NCBI GenBank assembly: GCA_947561715.1 | Contig: OX387198.1 | Coordinates: 18,851,645 to 18,915,644 of the forward strand | DNA from: Ascidia mentula | Taxonomy: Eukaryota; Chordata; Ascidiacea; Phlebobranchia; Ascidiidae | Length of the DNA: 64,000 nucleotides | Direction: 5' to 3' | Shown here: one piece after another, positions 16,137 through 62,294 of the stretch | Layout of the letters: the number at the start of each line of letters is the position of its first letter | How positions within the stretch are numbered: the first letter of the stretch is position 1 | Translations under genes and position numbers: made by a program | The notes under the pieces: model-generated | What the model saw: only the letters and a program-made list of their open reading frames with translations | The model's database searches: none | Told to the model about the DNA's origin: nothing

Positions 16137-17358
16137 TCACGGTAAAGTAACTAAATATTGAGACTTAAGTTCATCAATCGTAACCATGCTTGCAGGTGGA
16201 TGATTTACATCGCTACTTAAAATTTGTCTGGTGGGATCCAATGTTTGCAACTGTAGCAAACGTAAGTTGGTGTGGAATAGTTGCAATGGGGTGTGATTGT
16301 TTTCTGTTGAAAGGCAGTGATTATTCGAAGCATCAACAAATTCTAAAAGTCTTTTGTTGATGATGCCCAGAAACACAAAATGCAAGCAAAACAGATCTGT
16401 GCTGTTTAACGGATCAAGTAAATGGATATCTTCCAGATAAGAGAATTTATTAAAGAAATCATTTATAACTTGGTTATTGATATCTCTATGCAGTCTTTCA
16501 ACTCTTTGGTTATGCACTGACGAGCCAGTCATGACAGCACCACTATTTCTTTGTTTTTCATACATATAGTTCCAAACCAAAACATTTTCACCTCCAAAAT
16601 CTGATCTGACACGAAGTGGCAAACCATACTTGTGTTCTGCTTCTTGAAACAATTTTAACACTGTTTCAGATTTGTTATTGGTTGAACAATGACAATATGT
16701 TATCAGCCTACTAAATCCATCTATTCCTGCATGCACAACGAATTTCCATCGGATGAGCTTGTGTGTGCCATCAATGTGCCAAACATAATTGGGTGATGGA
16801 ACACTGTATTTTTTTCGCCTAATGGTAACAAGTTGTCTTGACCGTATACCATTTTCATCAATTCTGTGCAAACTTTCTCTTAGCCTTTTACGTTGCACAA
16901 TGATTCCTTGTGATAACAAGTGGCCTCTGACCATCACTTCTCCAACTGCTGGATGCCTCTGCTTTATTGCACTTATAACCTCATCAAGCTGATGATTGGA
17001 CATACCACTGAATAAGTACACATTACTTAATTTAAGGACTAACCATTGCTTTCACAAACATACTATCATTCTGCTTCTTCGTGATAAGGAGTTTTATTTT
17101 TTTGGGGAAATTAGCAAGTATAAACGAAATACAAGAAAAGAACAGCTTTGGAATAAATACAGCTCTATGACTTAGAAGGCATAAGACAATAAAGGCTTAT
17201 TATTACCTGAACTGTTTACCAATTAGATTGTTAGACCTCATCACTAATTGCAAAGTTGGCCTTGAAACTCCTAAAATTTGGCTAATTTCAGTTTTCGTTA
17301 GCTGCAGTTTTAGCAGACCTTTAAGATGATTAATGTCAACTTCCTTTCTTGATCGTCC
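16137..17358 (-). CDS. IS3EU-type DDE integrase/transposase (two exons)
   Basis: Exon 1 (17358-17207) encodes a helix-turn-helix (LTKTEISQILGVSRPTLQLV) and ends at a GT donor. Exon 2 runs from about 17007 to the stop at 16137. In the 294-residue frame, Asp84 (WHIDGTHKLI), Asp141 (VRSDFGGENV) and Glu175 (NQRVERLHRD) give a retroviral-type D,D(about 35)E triad. The segment HAGIDGFSRLITY is characteristic of the family. No stop or frameshift is visible across these exons, so the transposase may be intact. It faces the HECT gene, with about 150 bp between the two stop codons. Upstream exons before 17358 may be missing from my model. Confidence 0.85.
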
Positions 17359-26763: not shown

Positions 26764-28373
26764 ATGGAAAACAATAAAGAGCCCATCGCATTTTTCTCCA
26801 AGGCATTAAATAACGCGCAAAAAAATTACAGTACTTTCGACAGAGAGTTGCTTGGGATTTATTTAGCGATTAAGCATTTTAAGGATATACTGCAGGGAAG
26901 GAATTTTAATGTTGTCTCAGATCATTTATCTTTGGTTAAGGCTTTCCGATCAAAGACGAGCAGTTTCACTCCGAGGCAAAACCGTCACATGGATTATATT
27001 GCCCAGTATACAAGCGATGTTGAATTTCTAAGTGGTTTTCAAAATGCAGTAGCAGACGGTCTTTCCCGAATCGAAGTAAATGCAATTTTCCTAAATGACA
27101 ACTTACTTTCGTTGAATGATTTAGCTCAGCATCAGCAAGATACGGACTTTCAGGAAAGTTTACAGGACTTGTATGGTTCATTGGAGGTAACAGAAAGGCA
27201 AGTTCCCAACAGTGATTTGAAGTTGATTGGCGACAGACCTATTGTTCCTCATGCTTTGAGGAAACGTGCTTTTCACACGCTTCACGGATTATCTCATCCA
27301 GGTGTAAAAGCGACACGCCGCTTGGTGGCTAGTCGTTTTGCTTGGCACGGTCTTAATCGAGACGTCAATGAATGGAGTCAAACTTGTTTGGAATGCCAAC
27401 GTTGTAAAGTTAGACGGCATGTACGAGCACCTTTGGGCAAATATATTGAACCCACAGGTAGATTTCAAGATGTCAACCTTGATCTTGTGGGGCCTTAACC
27501 ATTATGTGATGGATATTCCTATTTATTAACATGTTGTTGCAGATTTTCTCGTTGGTTTGAAGCAATACCATTGCATAATATTACCGCCGAGACTTGCATA
27601 AACGCGTTCTTGTTGCATTGGGTGGCAAGATTTGGTGCGCCACTGCGGGTTTCGACAGATCGCGGTAGTCAGTTTACCTCTGAAGCATTTAATGATTTTT
27701 GTGTGCAATTTGGCATAAATTTACAACGCAACGGATTCATCGAGATACAACATAAGTATTTAAAATCTGCTCTCAAATCTCATAATCAACCAAATAATTG
27801 GAACGCCAATACGCCAATTTAGGTCTTGTACTTTTTGGCTTACGCAGCGTTTTTAAGCCAGACATAGGTGCATGTGCTGCTGAATTAGTCTATGGCCAAA
27901 CGTTGAGATTACCTGGTGAATTTTTTGAGGAAATTGTACCGGAAACATCTGTATCCAATTATTCCAAGCAATTAACCGCATTTATGTCACATTTGAACTT
28001 TGCAAATCGTAAGCCGCAGCGACAGGTTAATGTTTATGTCGACCCCGTTCTAGCGAGCTGCACACATGTTTTTGTGAGAGTACACGCCAAGAAAGGAACA
28101 TTATCTCCAGCTTATGATGGTCCATGTAAGGTGTTGAATAAACATCCAAAGTTTTTCACCTTAGCTATGAACGGACGAGAAAACACAGTAACCATTGATC
28201 GACTTAAAGTCGCTGATCCAAATGTTCATACAGATTCATCTATAGACACAGACGTAATAACTGATACTTCTGCTATTTCCGACGTTGCTCCACTTATCGT
28301 TTCCCCTGATCAGGATACACACGTCACTAGAAGAGGACGCATAATCCGAAAACCTCTTCGATATCGCGATTAG
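26764..28373 (+). pseudogene. Ty3/gypsy pol: RNase H and integrase, broken
   Basis: The first frame (26764-27498) starts inside RNase H (PIAFFSKALNNAQKNYSTFD; FNVVSDHLSL; NAVADGLSR). It then gives the integrase zinc domain (HGLSHPGVKATRRLV...CLECQRCKV) and the start of the core (LDLVGP), ending at a stop. The core resumes at about 27571 (RFGAPLRVSTDRGSQFTSEAF, second catalytic Asp) with disruption near 27810. A third frame (27798-28373) supplies the C-terminal part, including PAYDGPCKVLNKHPKFFTL and a basic tail. Protease and RT are not present upstream. It is defective. Confidence 0.85.
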
Positions 28374-30698: not shown

Positions 30699-30704
30699 CA
30701 CATG
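30699..30704. repeat. Target-site duplication CACATG (left)
   Basis: Identical to 36121-36126 on the other side of the alpha-kinase/integrase element. It marks the insertion exactly. Confidence 0.9.
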
Positions 30705-31375
30705 TATGGTGGCCCATCGTTGCCACGACTTTTCATTGAATATAAATTAGTTTTGACTTACATTTTTTTCTATTTTGATATGAATGTGCATTTCATTTTT
30801 ATTTTAAATTCATTTTTATTTTAGTTGCATTTTTGAATTCATTTTTATTATGAAAGGTAATTTTGATTTTATTTTCATTGTGAAAAGCATTTATAATTTC
30901 ATTTTCAATGTCAAATGCATTTTCTTTTTGAAAAGCATTTATAATTTCATTTTTATTTTGAAAAGCATTTTTAATTTAATTTTCATTTTGAAATTCGTTT
31001 TTATTTGTGAATGCATTTTAAAATTAATTTTTGTTTTGATATGTATTTCGTTTTAAAATTAAATTGATGTAGGTGGCCCAGCGTTGTCATCACGTGACAA
31101 CTTGTGTAGTAGAGCGTAAAATTTCCTGCGTGAAATATGCATTGTCCACGGTTGTTGCCTGACGGCGCACCTGAAACCGCGTTTGCTTTTCAATCAAATG
31201 CGGCAAATTTTGTATTATCAGCTTGCGTCAAGGCTGACAGAAAACTATTTTCTGTGGGACTGAATTTTTTAGTTGTAAAAGATCTGCTTTGGTCTCGCGC
31301 GTAGTGTTCAGATTAGTTTTCCAATTGTATTTCACTGGATTAACCGGGATCGACTCGAAAGGCCCCAACAGACTT
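30705..31375 (+). repeat. Left long terminal inverted repeat
   Basis: Pairs with 35465-36120 inverted. It includes a low-complexity core with repeated GAAAAGCATTTATAATTTC and ATTTTTATTTT words (30780-31060), and an inner unique part (GGCCCAGCGTTGTCATCACG onward) that also matches. Confidence 0.9.
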
Positions 31376-31546
31376 TGATTGGTTTATTTTTTACTAAAAA
31401 AAGTCGAAATTAATTCACAGAATTATTGAACAACAATGATGATAGTTGAACCATTTGAACGTTCAACAAAATCAAATATAATATATGTTGTTGTTTTATT
31501 ATACTGCTGTAGTGTGGTTGGTAGGTAAAATCAAACTTTCAATTTT

Positions 31547-32764
31547 ATGATATTTATAATGAAACGCAAACAAACTTGGAAAGAATTTGAGGCAATGATT
31601 GGACAGAAACGCAAGGGCACAAATGAGAAGAAGAATGACTGCCAAAACGCTACTCCAGATGACATTATGGTACAACGTATGTCAAGTGTGCCATCAGGTA
31701 GACTAAAGAAGTATGAACCCTTAGATACTCGAGACTTTGTTCCTTTCCCACATCCTGAATTATCCCTTGAAAATGTAAAAAATGCATGTGAATCATTTTA
31801 TAGCGAACCTACCGGCTCATGTGATGTTTTGGCCTCAGATAGAGGACCATCTTGCAGCAGAATTGAGCAGGTGAAAGGAAAGAAAATTTTTTTAGTAAGG
31901 TTCTTGTCACATGAAGCTGGCATGGATACTGTGAAAGGTAATAACGTCAGCCAACACAAATCGAGAAAATCCACAAACCATTTGTCTCATCCCAAATCTA
32001 TATCAATTAGCCACTTGCTACGAGCTGGACAGTTGGTCAAAGCCCCTTTAAAACAGCAAGCAACATTAAAGCTCCTGTGGTTTGATGCATATAAGACTAG
32101 CTGGAATGAATTAGGAGATATAACTTTTGAGATAGCAGACCAAAAATTTGCGGATGGAGCATTTCGAAATGCACACAGGGCGACTGTATGCAATAATGAG
32201 GATTTACCTAGAGAGTGTGTTATAAAAATGTACAAAGATGATACACTTGCAACCATAAAGTATGATTTAAATCTGTCTGAAGAGGAACACACAAAAAAAC
32301 AGGTCCAGATGCATAGTGTAGCAAAGGTTTTTGCAGAAGTATGTTCTAATAAGGCTCCTTCCCAATTTGGCAGTACATTTAAGTTTGGATCAGTGTATTT
32401 TTCGAAGTATAAAGATAGACATGTAACTGTTGAACAGTATTATGCTGGAGATTTTAGAAAGTACATCAACAATGATGGCCATTGTCCTATAACAAACCAG
32501 GATGAGTTTCAGAAAAAAGCTGAATGTCTCGCACATTTTAGCTATTCTTACTCAAACACTAAGATGATGTTGCTTGATCTGCAAGGTACTGGGTATCAGC
32601 TTTATGATCCAGAAATTGCTTCAACAGAGTTAATGAGTGAGGACCAAAAAGAAACCCTGTTTTGTGCTGGCAACCTGTCTACAGAAGCCATTACCACTTT
32701 TATCAAAGAACATGTTTGTAATATGAACAGAATAGCCAATACAGTGCTCGAAAACTTCATGTAA
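31547..32764 (+). CDS. Alpha-kinase (MHCK/EF2K-type) cargo protein
   Basis: An intact 405-codon frame; Met5 (31559) is an alternative start. Residues 1-165 are basic, low in motifs and probably disordered. The alpha-kinase domain spans about 185-400. FADGAFRNAHRATV (201-214) is the nucleotide-binding loop region, CVIKMYK carries the likely catalytic Lys227, and FAEVCSNKAP (262-271) and AHFSYSYSNTKMMLLDLQGT (329-348) match kinase core strands, followed by the LYDPEIAS block (352-359). The end TFIKEHVCNMN (384-394) resembles the zinc-binding end of these kinases. His389 and Cys391 are there, but the next expected Cys is replaced by Arg. Alpha-kinases phosphorylate Ser/Thr. What a transposon gains from one is unknown. 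The gene precedes the integrase gene in the same orientation. Confidence 0.85.
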   Translation: MIFIMKRKQTWKEFEAMIGQKRKGTNEKKNDCQNATPDDIMVQRMSSVPSGRLKKYEPLDTRDFVPFPHPELSLENVKNACESFYSEPTGSCDVLASDRGPSCSRIEQVKGKKIFLVRFLSHEAGMDTVKGNNVSQHKSRKSTNHLSHPKSISISHLLRAGQLVKAPLKQQATLKLLWFDAYKTSWNELGDITFEIADQKFADGAFRNAHRATVCNNEDLPRECVIKMYKDDTLATIKYDLNLSEEEHTKKQVQMHSVAKVFAEVCSNKAPSQFGSTFKFGSVYFSKYKDRHVTVEQYYAGDFRKYINNDGHCPITNQDEFQKKAECLAHFSYSYSNTKMMLLDLQGTGYQLYDPEIASTELMSEDQKETLFCAGNLSTEAITTFIKEHVCNMNRIANTVLENFM

Positions 32765-33289
32765 ACGTTTCGATTGTTTCTACAACCATTATCAATGTTG
32801 ACAAACCTCCGTCGTCGGAGGTTTGTCAACATCTTGTGTCAAATCCATCGCACAGGATCGACTTTAACAACCCAACCATCCTTGGACAGATTGAAGGAAA
32901 GCGGCGCTTATCTTTCTTGGAAACTATCCACATCCAAAATTTTAGGCCGCTTTTAAATGCCGACACATCCTCTGTGCCACTACGACTTTTTAATATATAA
33001 ACCGTGTATTTTATAATGTTTTTTTATTTTTATTCTTTTTATTTATTTATTTTCTTTACCGTGCACAGTGCCCTTAATTGTTTTTATCTATCACTACCAC
33101 AGGCAACTCCGTTCGACTCCATTATCAACAATTGCGCTTATTTAATTCCCCGCCTTTTTCTATAACCTCCCAACTTCACCGTACCATTTTTGCCGATCCG
33201 CTTTCATTTGTATTGATAATGGTTGTAGAAACAATCGAAACGTTTACATGAAGTTTTCGAGCACTGTATTGGCTATTCTGTTCATATTA
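32719..33289. repeat. Inverted duplication of the alpha-kinase 3' end around a hairpin
   Basis: 32719-32795 (the last codons and start of the 3' UTR) is repeated inverted at about 33214-33289. The right copy contains the complement of the ending GAAAACTTCATGTAAACG. Immediately inside the left arm is a near-perfect hairpin (32796-32831) with 16-bp arms TGTTGACAAACCTCCG and a 4-base loop. The roughly 380 bp between is T/C-rich and non-coding. It is probably a local inverted duplication or a nested insertion. Confidence 0.85.
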
Positions 33290-33654
33290 AAGATCTACAA
33301 AACCGTTAGTTATGTTCCTATGTTTGTAATACATTTTGTGACATGTTAAAGCTTGAACCGCTTTAACTGGATTGATGAAGTTAAATATTATGAGCTGTAG
33401 ATTTTCCAGTCCATGCTTTTATTAGAAGTGTATTAATTTCAATTTCATCTATATATTATGTTTCGTCCATCAAGCACAATTGGTTCCAAAGCAATTGGTT
33501 TCATCAAATTATTTAGCAATAACTTCCATGTATCAAAAAAAGATACAGTAAAATTTAAGCAAAGTAGTGCTGCTATAAAGTTGCATAATGTTGTATATCA
33601 GAAAAGTGTCATGCACAATGTTGCACATTTTTCTTTTCAATTTTAATTTTTTAG

Positions 33655-34836
33655 ATGGATGGGAGTGTCATTAGCAATGCATGGATGTCTGATAGTAGGC
33701 TAAAAAATGACTTGAATACTTATGTCCAGCAAAATCTAAAGCGAAGTGAAATTCTCGACTTTATTAAAAAGGATTATCCACATTATGCTTGGAGTTTAAC
33801 AACACTGGACAGAAGACTGAGACATTTTGAAGTATTTTACATTAATTACAATACAAGGTTATCTCAAGTTTCTGATGCTATAAAAAACGAACTGCAAGGA
33901 CCTGGTAAGTTACTCGGATACCGGGCTATGAATCAAAAGCTGAGATGTGTACATAACATTAGGGTTCCAAGGCACTTAGTGCACAGCATGATGACTCATC
34001 TAGATTATGAAGGGATGCGTTTACGTAATGTTAAAAGGAAGCAGAAACATGAAAAACATCCGTTTACTTCACAAGGTCCATTGTGGGTAATATCACTGGA
34101 TGGTCATGACAAACTCTGTGGATACCAAAATTCAACCTTTCCTCTTGGTATATATGGATGCATGGACACATTTTCTAGGAAAATTTTGTTTTTATTTGTT
34201 ACACATTCTAATTCTAACCCCCTCATTATCGGAAAAAAATATCTAGAGTTCCTGGACAGAGGAACCGAAACTGGCAAAATGGCAACGATCCACTCATACC
34301 TATTGCACCTTGTTTCAAATATGGACAATCCAACAAATGCAATATTATATGGGCCATCAAACACCAACAAAATTGAACGTTGGTGGCGAGATTTGCATGA
34401 GAGGCTCGAAAAGTTCTTTAAGCATCAGTTAAATGAACTCTTGCATGAAAAGATTTATGATCCACACAACCTACTTGACAGACAGTTATTGTTTTATGTT
34501 TATCAGCCTATACTTACGCGTGAATGCAGTGTGTTTGTTGACTATTGGAATAGTCATCGTATTAGAGCTCAAAGAGGGTTGGAATTACCATGTGGTGTTC
34601 CAAATCACCTCTATTCCTTTCCGGAGTATTATGGTGCATCCAGAAAAGGGTTTGCAATCAGTCATGATAATCTAAAAACTGTTGCAGAGCTGTCTGGAGT
34701 CATAAGTGCCCCAACCACATGGTTGGAAGATGATGTTGCTGTAAAGTGTAGAGAAATTATGTGCTCTCCACACGAAATAGACTCTGCTCATGCTGCAAAT
34801 GCCTACCGCTTTTTGAAGCAGCAGTTTACATGTTAA
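33655..34836 (+). CDS. IS3EU-type DDE integrase/transposase
   Basis: A 393-residue frame that starts at ATG right after a splice-acceptor-like TTTTTTAG, so an upstream non-coding or short exon is likely. Residues 15-60 look like an HTH region. Core: Asp149 (ISLDGHDKL), then YGCMDTFSRKI (168-177), Asp201 (LDRGTETGKMAT), and Glu241 in NKIERWWRDLHERLE, followed by VDYWNSHRIRAQRG and GVPNHLYSFPEYYG. These are hallmarks of a large family of integrase-like transposases in fish and invertebrates. From FSR to the second Asp there are about 29 residues, versus 39 in the integrase at 16.1-17.4 kb. An in-frame loss of about ten residues just before the second catalytic Asp is therefore suspected and could inactivate the enzyme. 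Confidence 0.85.
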   Translation: MDGSVISNAWMSDSRLKNDLNTYVQQNLKRSEILDFIKKDYPHYAWSLTTLDRRLRHFEVFYINYNTRLSQVSDAIKNELQGPGKLLGYRAMNQKLRCVHNIRVPRHLVHSMMTHLDYEGMRLRNVKRKQKHEKHPFTSQGPLWVISLDGHDKLCGYQNSTFPLGIYGCMDTFSRKILFLFVTHSNSNPLIIGKKYLEFLDRGTETGKMATIHSYLLHLVSNMDNPTNAILYGPSNTNKIERWWRDLHERLEKFFKHQLNELLHEKIYDPHNLLDRQLLFYVYQPILTRECSVFVDYWNSHRIRAQRGLELPCGVPNHLYSFPEYYGASRKGFAISHDNLKTVAELSGVISAPTTWLEDDVAVKCREIMCSPHEIDSAHAANAYRFLKQQFTC

Positions 34837-35464
34837 CATTAAAATTATAACATGAGCTTTTTCTGTTCCTGTTTTGTAAAATTGTGTGAGTTCTTATGAC
34901 TTTTTTACTGGATATAATATTTTCGTGTACGTCTACACTGTTTCCATGTGACAATCATATCTTCTCATGTCAAAATAGAATTACAGAATTTATTTGCATT
35001 TGGTGATACACTCGGCTGCCTCACAATAAGTTGAATAGAAATAAGTTTTGTGACCAGATCTGTATGTTTTCCATACATTGTGGTTCACAAGCAGTTGCCT
35101 GAATTCACATTCACACAGACTTGAAAGAAAAATCTAAGCTAACCATTTAGTTGTTGTTGGACAAAATCATTTGACAATGAAAAATCCCACCCCTTTTTTT
35201 CTCTTTGAAAAGGACCAGTAGATCTTCATGGGTCACCGACCACAGGAATTGTTGTGGGCAAAAAAGCAAATCACCCAGAATGGGTATTAATGTTGATAGG
35301 CTTCAAAACTTGATTTTGGGGATTTAATACTGATATGGGGCCTTCAGGGAAATTTGCCACTTTGTAAACTGTGCAATGTGGGTCAAATTTATGCTTAAAT
35401 TTCTAAGTTTATGTATTTCGAGGAACATGGAAATTTGTGTGGTTAGTTCTTTATTAAGCACAGG
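34837..35464. other. 3' flank of integrase gene, non-coding
   Basis: AT-rich, with no ORF or motif of note between the integrase stop and the right inverted repeat. Confidence 0.5.
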
Positions 35465-36120
35465 CATGCTGTTGGGGGCTTTTCGATGCGATCCCGGTCA
35501 ATCCAGTGAAATACAATTGGAAAACTAATCTGAACAATACGCGCCAGACCAAAGCAGATCTATTACAACTAAAAAATTCAGTCCCACAGAAAATAGTTTT
35601 CTGTCGGCCTTGACGCAAGCTGATAATACAAAATTTGCCGCATTTCATTGAAAAGCAAAAGCGGTTTCAGGTGCGCCGTCAGGCAACAACCGTGGACAAT
35701 GCATATTTCACGCAGGAAATTTTACGCTCTACTACACAAGTTGTCACGTGATGACAACGCTGGGCCACCTACATCAATTTAATTTTAAAACAAAATACAT
35801 ATTTTAAAATGCATTCACAAATAAAAACGAATTTTAAAATGAAAATTAAATTAAAAATGCTTTTCAAAATAAAAATGAAATTATAAATGCTTTTCAAAAA
35901 GAAAATGCATTTGATATTGAAAATGAAATTATAAATGCTTTTCACAATGAAAATAAAATCAAAATTACGTTTCATAATAAAAATGAATTTAAAAATGCAA
36001 CTAAAATAAAAATGAATTTAAAATAAAAATGAAATGCAAATTTATATCAAAATAGAAAAAAATGTAAGTCAAAACTAATTTATATTCAATGAAAAGTCGT
36101 GGCAACGATGGGCCACCATA
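35465..36120 (-). repeat. Right long terminal inverted repeat
   Basis: Inverse of 30705-31375. It ends GGCAACGATGGGCCACCATA at 36120, followed by the CACATG duplication. Confidence 0.9.
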
Positions 36121-36126
36121 CACATG

Positions 36127-47820: not shown

Positions 47821-48719
47821 TTATTTACAAAATGTGTTTTGTCTGACTGGATTTTTTGAGGCAAACTCTGTGATAAGTTGTTCCACATCAAGTATGTCAA
47901 CAATTTCTTTATGCGTGCTCAGGATGCATGTGCTGTTGAGGCGGTCTTGTGTTATTGTGGATCGCAAATACGTTTTAACGCGACGAAGAGTGCTAAACGA
48001 TCTCTCAGCCTCACAAGACGTGGAAGGTAAACACAAGAACAGTATGCAGAGGTGCTCAAGGTGATTTCCAAAATATTTAACTTCCAAAGAAAGGCGGGGA
48101 AAACTTTCCATCAGCTGTTCCTGATTAACGCGTTTGCACAGGATTGCGTACTCCAGCAACTGAATTTTTGATAAATTTTCTTTCGAAAACTGATTAACGA
48201 GGGTAGAAGTAGCCAGGCGGTACATTTCTTTGTAACTTCCGGATATTTTGAGTTGCCGTGCTGAATCCATAACCGCCTGTACAAAGGCATCGGCATTCTT
48301 ATCAGAAGCGCTTTCTACAGAAAAAATATCCACCAATCTCCTAATCATTTCCTGTACATCTGCAACAGTGTTATTCCTGGATTGGATTTGCGTGTGGACG
48401 ACGATCAAGAATCTTTCCATCAGACGAAGCATAAAATATGTCGCAAACCAAAGATCTGACAATCAAGTATTTTCTCATAATTTTGCAAAAATGCCTCGAG
48501 GGCAGGCAGGCGAAGAACCCACCAGGTGGGACACGAGTCATTTTCGTTTCCAACATGAAAAGTGGAAAACATTGCCAAACGTTTAGGAAAACAAACTTTA
48601 GTTCCGTAAGTGTGCAAATTCAATGCCTCTTGTACCACGAGATTAAGCTGATGGCCCGCACAGTGAACAGATGTTGCCCAAAAGTGTTTGGGTAAAGTGA
48701 TGCTTGTACTGTATCCCAA
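47821..48719 (-). pseudogene. hAT transposase C-terminal half (copy A)
   Basis: Read right to left. VHCAGHQLNLVVQEALN (about 48660-48610) is a conserved hAT block. The frame at 48462-47821 ends with LPSTSCEAERSFSTLRRVKT, the hAT dimerisation motif, and a C-terminal stretch ending NPVRQNTFCK. One frame change near 48430-48460 separates the two parts. The wording resembles ZMYM1-like/zinc-finger hAT transposases. The N-terminal zinc finger and first catalytic region are missing. Confidence 0.85.
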
Positions 48720-61025: not shown

Positions 61026-62294
61026 TTATCTACTCCACTGCCATGAAACTGCTCCATCTTTCAAAAAATATTTTTTTAACCGATCCCTGTAAAAACCTGC
61101 ATTTCTGGAATAAAAGTTCGAGCCAATATGTCCAAGTGAATCCATATTGACAGTTGAAGGAATAGTTTGTCTCCAGTTACCATTCACTGTATTGCCATTT
61201 CCATCAAATTGTAGGAAGAACCACACAGGCCTGTACAATACACTGTGCCATTTCTGGATCACAATTCAGCATTTTATAGAATACTTGCCATCTCACGGCA
61301 AGTATACCAAAAGCATTCTCTACAACTCTTCTTCTACGACTCAGTCGGTAATTAAAAATTTGTTTGTCCTCACTGAGATGCCGTCCTGGATACGGCTTAA
61401 TGATTCCAATCTTCAATGGAAAAGCATCATCAGCAGCCAAATAGTAGGGAACATTAATGTTAGATCCTGGCAAGCTTTTAGGAATACATAAAGAACCTTC
61501 ATCAATTTTTTTCCAACTCTGGAATTACTGAAGATACCACCATCACTATGTCGACCTGAGTCACCAATATCCACAAGAACAAAACGATAATGGGCATCAC
61601 AAATTGCTAAAAGCACAATGGAGAAAAAACCCTTATAATTAAAAAATTCAGTACCACTATTAGGTGGAGCCTTAATTCTAATGTGTTTTCCGTCGATTGC
61701 TCCAATGCAGTTTGAGCATTGCCAAAACTTATGAAAATCTTCAGCAATTTGCAACCAATCTTCTGCAGTAGGAGGGCGCAAAACTATTGGAACCAAACAT
61801 TCCCATAGCGCCGAACAGCACTCCCTGATAATCTTGCCTACTGTAGTGTGACCCACTCTAAATGAAAAACCTATATGTAGCTGAGATGCACCTGTTGCAA
61901 GGTATCGTAAGGTCAAAATCAGGCGACGCTGTGGTGAAATTGCTTTTCTCCAAGGAGTGTCCATTTTTCTTATTTTGGGCTAAATAGTCTTCAGTAATGT
62001 ATAGAATTTCTCTTTACTCATTCTAAAATATTGGTGACATTTGTCTAGGTCTCCACCTCCAAGAAGTTGCTCAGCCACAATAAATTCTGATTTGCTGTCT
62101 CTTTCTTTTAGCATTCCATGCACCCAAATATTTCTAAACATTAAAATGATAGCTTTATAAATACTTAAATAAGATATATATAGGTTACTCTCACTTAATC
62201 ACTACCTTTCACTCCCAGATAAACTTTCATACAGAACATATGCTTCAATTGTGGAATGTAGATTAAGCAAGGTTTCAAAGCAAACGTCATCCAT
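61026..62294 (-). pseudogene. HARB1-like DDE nuclease of the Harbinger element
   Basis: Exon 1 (62294-62206) encodes MDDVCFETLLNLHSTIEAYV. Exon 2 from 62133 has KCHQYFRMSKEKFYTLL, an in-frame TAG, then RRLILTLRYLATG, FHKFWQCSNCIGAIDGKHIR (first catalytic Asp; about 61730-61670), FFNYKGFFSIVLLAICDA and VDIGDSGRHSDGG. After a one-base loss in an A-run (about 61508), the frame continues LPGSNINVPYYLAADDAFPL and RRRRVVENAFGILAVRW (Glu of the triad). A second shift near 61208 precedes the C-terminus. One stop and two frameshifts mean it is inactive, but it is otherwise complete. Confidence 0.88.

Follow-up and report, generated by a model that had tools for sequence, protein, structure and literature searches.

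The closest described systems are the DNA transposons of the IS3EU/GingerRoot superfamily. As set out in the main text of PMC10045372, these have TA..TA ends, usually 6-bp target-site duplications, and an integrase-like DDE transposase with no upstream HHCC motif; the word kinase has 0 occurrences in that main text, whereas the element described here carries one. In fungi, IS3EU elements combine 6-bp duplications and ends of the form TAYGG..CCRTA with a transposase and an alpha-kinase gene, according to the passages on IS3EU in Kojima 2025 (PMC12730594). In the fungal TET/JBP families, the TET/JBP gene sits between the transposase and the alpha-kinase (PMC12730594), and the abstract of the paper suggests TET/JBP as a means of escaping silencing.

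The initial annotation of our element was aware of no described role of alpha-kinases in transposition. The association of the kinase with IS3EU is already in print for fungi, while the passages in question give no function for it (Kojima 2025, PMC12730594). Among the papers listed, no other literature on alpha-kinase-bearing transposons was apparent from titles and the beginnings of abstracts. As far as these literature searches go, the new observations are the occurrence of the pair in animals, the correlated divergence of its two proteins, a lineage with both genes in the same direction, and a copy without the kinase.

Boundaries and ends of the element

The window is a stretch of 64,000 nucleotides from Ascidia mentula (C2:18851645-18915644 of a 196-Mb assembly). 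The element in it spans positions 30705-36120 (5416 bp), with ends TATGGTGG...CCACCATA, and CACATG stands on both sides (30699..30704 and 36121..36126) with 0 mismatch. The left terminal inverted repeat (30705..31366, + strand; inverted-repeat arms I1 and I2, family D1) begins TATGGTGGCCCATCG and contains A/T-rich sub-repeats with 30/18 bp spacing; the right one (35475..36120, - strand; inverted-repeat arms and end scan) finishes ...GGCCACCATA. The inverted ends are ~650 bp long and contain two arms, 340 and 328 bp in length, that are 96-97% identical. The 5416-bp unit with TAT-starting ends and ~660-bp terminal repeats, as well as its perfect CACATG duplication, had been reported in the initial annotation and are both borne out.

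The element resembles the IS3EU/GingerRoot superfamily, as characterized in the main text of PMC10045372, in its TA..TA ends, its 6-bp duplication, and its integrase-like DDE transposase (PF24764), although the window copy of this enzyme is probably inactive. With the fungal IS3EU elements, in the passages of PMC12730594 that describe them, it shares the 6-bp duplication, the end type (TATGG...CCATA), terminal inverted repeats (>30 bp in the fungal set), and the combination of a transposase with an alpha-kinase gene. The TET/JBP gene that lies between transposase and kinase in the fungal TET+ layout was not found in the window element: its two large frames gave no Pfam match to TET/JBP, and no other frame that begins with ATG reaches 150 aa. 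As part of the account developed below, the element is likely to be an IS3EU DNA transposon of a two-gene kind, present here as a damaged copy.

The alpha-kinase gene and its nested insert

The alpha-kinase reading frame (31547..32764, + strand; ORF scan) encodes 405 aa with the kinase domain at aa 202-392. The profile check proposed for this interval gave a PF02816 match with an E value of 1.1e-30 and 107.6 bits, above the curated cut-off of 21.3. Among PDB entries, the profile matches are a TRP-related channel kinase, which we take to be TRPM7, MHCK A, eEF2K, and ALPK1. The ATP-site Lys, the catalytic Asp and Gln, and a second Asp are present as K227, D344, Q346, and D354, roles that we assign by analogy with TRPM7. 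In the aligned kinases, H330, D344, Q346, and D354 occur in 31/31 rows, and K227 and E296 in 30/31. Since the active-site residues are conserved, it can be argued that these kinases work.

Between the kinases of L020 and the window copy, dN is 0.48 against a dS of 1.52 (unsaturated), which speaks for retained function, although both loci have damaged integrases; the near-identical copies of family A differ by few changes and show no sign of constraint (e.g. 5 nonsynonymous and 0 synonymous between L016 and L018).

The kinase domain, with its conserved zinc ligands and its Lys, Asp, and Gln, is common to the transposon kinase and the alpha-kinases of hosts (TRPM6/7, eEF2K, MHCK, ALPK1). Unlike the host enzymes, the transposon kinase has ~200 unmatched N-terminal residues and is encoded by one open frame lying within a transposon. 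These ~200 residues gave no PDB match and no consistent Pfam match. The N-terminal half was matched by 76 proteins, in 51 of which PF02816 is the sole Pfam domain, while 25 (all <=352 aa) have none; no sign of an independent function was found among the 76. The N-terminus is basic, but a bipartite nuclear-signal test gave 35 of 80 and so did not exceed shuffles of the same 60 residues, for which the mean was 26 and the maximum 38.

The initial annotation gave the correct length for the kinase frame and called it intact, but the gene is broken before its last zinc Cys by a nested repeat insert of ~600 bp (32724..33319, + strand). The insert has 78-bp inverted arms (32719-32796 and 33212-33289) and is flanked by the 12-bp word ATGTTTGTAATA (left copy 32712..32723, right copy 33320-33331). 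Because it interrupts the frame just after HVCN, the window kinase lacks the last zinc Cys, and the open reading frame ends in insert-derived residues (...HVCN-MNRIANTVLENFM). From comparison with the aligned kinases, the cut-off C-terminal remainder of the gene, VCNTFCDMLKLEPL-stop, lies at 33320..33366 (+ strand). A C-terminal CxxxC is conserved in 27/31 aligned kinases by a by-eye count of the printed ends, the second Cys not being conserved in the window copy, P0017, P0024, and P0086. The complete zinc site (H, H, C, C) is present in the kinases of families A and B and incomplete in the window copy.

In the genome, the nested insert matches at least 96 stretches, a count that rests on scoring 40 out of 179 candidates and takes in the window's own match and separate inverted-arm matches; among the candidates scored its nearest other copies show 99-100% identity. 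Its matches cluster on C73 near 9.997-10.018 Mb. A frame of 337 aa in longer copies contains a YVDD motif and the stretch SYIGQT, which is GIY-YIG-like. By these motifs the insert is presumably the 3' end of a Penelope-like element; Pfam gives no match to the 337-aa frame.

The integrase gene

The DDE integrase/transposase frame (33655..34836, + strand; ORF scan) encodes 393 aa and matches PF24764 with an E value of 1.3e-15, above the curated cut-off. D149, D201, and E241, which are taken as the catalytic triad, are invariant across 30 aligned rows. The frame has the 393-codon length given in the initial annotation, but 36 bp (12 residues) are missing in frame at 34254..34255 (+ strand), immediately before the second catalytic Asp. 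All 29 other aligned rows have residues at this place, and the 36-bp difference is visible in the DNA of relic L041, which is 91% identical to the window copy. The absence of a stretch leading into a catalytic Asp probably kills the window integrase. Judging from its reading frames, the window copy should give no normal kinase and no integrase that is active.

The kinase-integrase pair across the genome

A genome search with PF02816 gave 23 matches, one of which lies in the window and 20 of which lie in 19 ten-kb stretches (L015-L033). The locus counts below leave out two weak matches (C2:19219476 and C52:14123277) and include L040, which was found via its integrase. By tblastn, 18 of the 20 loci with transposon-kinase remains also hold matching integrase remains, the exceptions being L023 and L033; conversely, integrase loci L039 and L041 have no kinase match. 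Many of the kinase copies are decayed.

In the end scan, which covered 20 loci including the window within ranges set by hand, TATGGTGG/CCACCATA ends with a perfect 6-bp duplication were found at ten. Nine of these contain both genes (the window, L015, L016, L017, L018, L022, L025, L027, and L029), and L039 has the integrase alone. The nine duplications of the two-gene elements are all different from one another. Whether kinase and integrase always occur together between such ends, a check suggested with the initial annotation, is answered positively by nine of the ten loci and negatively by L039. Both ends without a matching duplication were found at L021, L024, and L028 (5, 4, and 2 mismatches), and no end pair was seen within the ranges searched at L019, L020, L030, L031, L032, L040, and L041. 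L021 and L022 (C70:12745000-12764800) are inverted copies of one element with 99.3% identity over 4.8 kb, which may lie within a large palindrome. Copies with open genes do exist: L015 and L018 each have two full-length open frames (384 and 397 aa), and the active-site residues are present in the proteins of L015.

A host kinase gene could in principle have been enclosed by chance between two element ends. This is extremely improbable, nothing found here speaks for it, and we reject it: the pair recurs with nine different duplications, and a host-type alpha-kinase is found elsewhere. At L026 (C69:5.602 Mb) two PF02816 matches represent one host-type gene, its pieces split over frames, including 'VVDIQGVGDLWTDPQIHT', which we recognise as eEF2K/MHCK-like. 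No integrase was detected there by tblastn, nor by Pfam within 6 kb, and the 9.9-kb stretch has no match to the N-terminal half of the transposon kinase. The 76 proteins that share this half, 51 with PF02816 only and 25 without a Pfam domain, speak against chance enclosure as well. Both the recurrence of the pair and the separate host-type gene without an integrase support the claim that the kinase is part of a mobile unit of IS3EU-like type and no gene of the host.

In 15 of the 18 loci with kinase and integrase the genes are convergent, and in three (the window, L024, and L031) they run in the same direction. The initial annotation was right that both genes of the window element have the same direction, but this is the minority layout genome-wide. 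The fungal TET+ elements have transposase and kinase in opposite orientation, an arrangement from which the window, L024, and L031 depart. A recent inversion, suggested by the 78-bp inverted arms, was rejected as the cause of the same-direction layout in the window, because these arms recur with the nested repeat elsewhere and the relics L024 and L031 have the same layout.

With PF24764, 46 matches were found in the genome, 11 of them within 6 kb of a PF02816 match and 35 not. Ten of the 11 are the partner integrase in the same element; the other (C1:14817597 in L029) lies outside the element and resembles another integrase type. The strongest PF24764 matches have no PF02816 match within 6 kb. 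Searches at the Pfam level overlook decayed genes: the kinase of L040 and the integrases of L027 and L028 were missed and were seen by tblastn.

Relatives and correlated divergence

Relatives at E <= 1e-3 number 143 for the kinase and 367 for the integrase, and the best 120 of each were examined. The sources named among them are animals and include Ciona, Phallusia, Paramuricea, Dendronephthya, Exaiptasia, Actinostola, Clytia, and Patella. Identical contig size was used as a proxy for linkage, several of the matched contigs being megabases long. By this proxy 10 of 117 kinase matches share a contig size with one of 115 integrase matches, against a mean of 0.65 and a maximum of 3 in 100 controls in which sizes were shifted by 1-50 either way. 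No viral relative was confirmed in the scans of viral contigs, which gave 0 pattern matches in one scan and 59 and 3 in the others.

The distances of the two proteins were compared over 13 pairs, ten public and three of this genome, some rows being fragments. The kinase and integrase distance matrices correlate with r = 0.788, a value reached by 0/5000 label permutations. In these 13 pairs the family A and family B proteins are nearest each other and the Ciona pair, with a kinase distance of 0.39 and integrase distances of 0.24-0.26. Each maximum-likelihood tree has a single well supported inner branch and is otherwise weakly supported, and the two trees, which have no supported group in common, do not on their own demonstrate congruence: the supported pair of the kinase tree (c64267 and c85488) is absent from the integrase tree, and the supported group of the integrase tree (Ciona, famA, and famB) is not resolved in the kinase tree. 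Because the distances correlate over large divergence, the kinase appears to be a standing component of one lineage. The initial annotation was right that the kinase lies inside the mobile unit, but its term cargo is probably too weak in view of this correlation.

Correlated divergence of both proteins is also what would be expected if the kinase were a direct partner whose phosphorylation of its own integrase, or of the complex between integrase and DNA, times or limits transposition. However, plain linkage yields such a correlation too, and the 35 of 46 PF24764 matches without PF02816 within 6 kb count against this reading, although decayed kinases escape that search. On balance we judge such regulation of the integrase, as the specific role of the kinase, to be unlikely.

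Family A, deletion copies, and proposed action in trans

Family A was represented by L015, and the first 124 bases of its end gave 15 genomic matches that form six pairs and three singles. Five of the six end pairs belong to elements of 2.7-4.0 kb (L015-L018 and L039); the ends of the sixth, around L019 (C69:21370172-21393153), lie 23 kb from each other and were perhaps separated by other insertions. The kinase is present in 5/6 of these pairs. In L039 a deletion removed the kinase together with the last 25 residues of the integrase, and the element has its own duplication, CATAAC. Copies with the same terminal repeats and no kinase had been named beforehand as an observation that would speak against the initial annotation; L039 is the one such copy, yet its internal deletion also took the end of the integrase. 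L039 indicates that a copy may move, or could do so before its deletion, without a kinase of its own, and the duplication around this copy makes it probable that the element can do without the kinase in cis. L027 (C71) and L028 (C69) have different flanks and broken genes, yet their sequences agree to 99.94% across 4724 bp, and no clear duplication is seen at L028; the two fit movement by proteins made elsewhere.

The window family is close to single-copy. The suggested genome search with the terminal repeat of the window, carried out with 86 bases of its end, matched six places, two of them its own. Two others are the relics L024 and L033, which have the kinase, while L034 (within 9.9 kb) and L012 (within ~1.5 kb inward) have the end only.

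A kinase-less element with ends and a duplication, as well as the many decayed kinase copies, would also be expected if the kinase were an old captured gene that is merely carried by the element and makes no contribution to transposition. The active-site residues are nevertheless shared by at least 30 of the 31 relatives, and kinase and integrase have been kept together over large divergence. We consider a mere passenger quite unlikely.

Proposed function of the kinase

Judging from the sequences compared here, the most likely role of the kinase is that of an accessory that acts in trans within one old lineage of IS3EU and modifies a nuclear host factor or the integrase. Overall, we regard it as likely that the window holds a two-gene IS3EU transposon, damaged in this copy, whose kinase is a trans-acting accessory of the element. 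In this scheme the integrase would cut and join at the TAT ends, which would generate the 6-bp duplications. The kinase, produced from an intact copy, would act in trans and phosphorylate either a host factor (in silencing, chromatin, or repair) or the integrase, and phosphorylation would raise the chance of the element moving or being expressed. The kinase would serve the element as an accessory and would not be cargo for the benefit of the host.

The kinase and integrase of family A (in L015 coordinates) start ~54 bp and ~259 bp inside the terminal repeats, so that each terminal repeat may carry a promoter. In the convergent layout, each long repeat could be the promoter for one inward-reading gene; in the same-direction lineage, only the kinase would start near a terminal repeat.

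A narrower proposal is that the kinase specifically disarms the silencing of the element by the host, through chromatin or small-RNA factors. A similar role has been suggested for anti-silencing proteins of plant transposons, and the kinase is plausibly able to act in trans. TET/JBP lies between transposase and alpha-kinase in fungal IS3EU families (PMC12730594), and the abstract of that work proposes silencing escape for it. However, neither large frame of the window element matches TET/JBP, and the observations fit direct action on the integrase equally well. Counter-defence as the specific function is rather doubtful.

Returning to the trans-acting accessory, a more far-reaching version may be put forward tentatively: animals may harbour an old IS3EU lineage that depends on its own dedicated kinase, whose phosphorylation in trans would rewire host nuclear signalling or the integrase, and which non-autonomous relatives would exploit. 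If true, a DNA transposon that keeps a protein kinase over long divergence would add a new route by which mobile DNA influences its host.

There is also a practical side, as database entries for such kinases carry host-gene names, such as 'myosin heavy chain kinase D-like', 'transient receptor potential ... M member 6-like', and 'Eukaryotic elongation factor 2 kinase'. An expansion of alpha-kinases has been reported in rust fungi, according to the part of PMC4469406 that deals with it, and expansions of this kind may partly consist of transposon genes.

Surroundings in the window

The window contains a second IS3EU-type integrase frame at 16137-17003 (- strand; 288 aa, PF24764 E value 3e-69), which is among the strongest matches to this profile and has no PF02816 match within 6 kb. 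Further mobile-element-type frames were recognised by Pfam: a Ulp1 protease with a PHD finger (82-663), a reverse-transcriptase RNase H with an integrase zinc domain (26764-27498), a hAT dimerisation region (47821-48432), and DDE_Tnp_4 (61413-61964).
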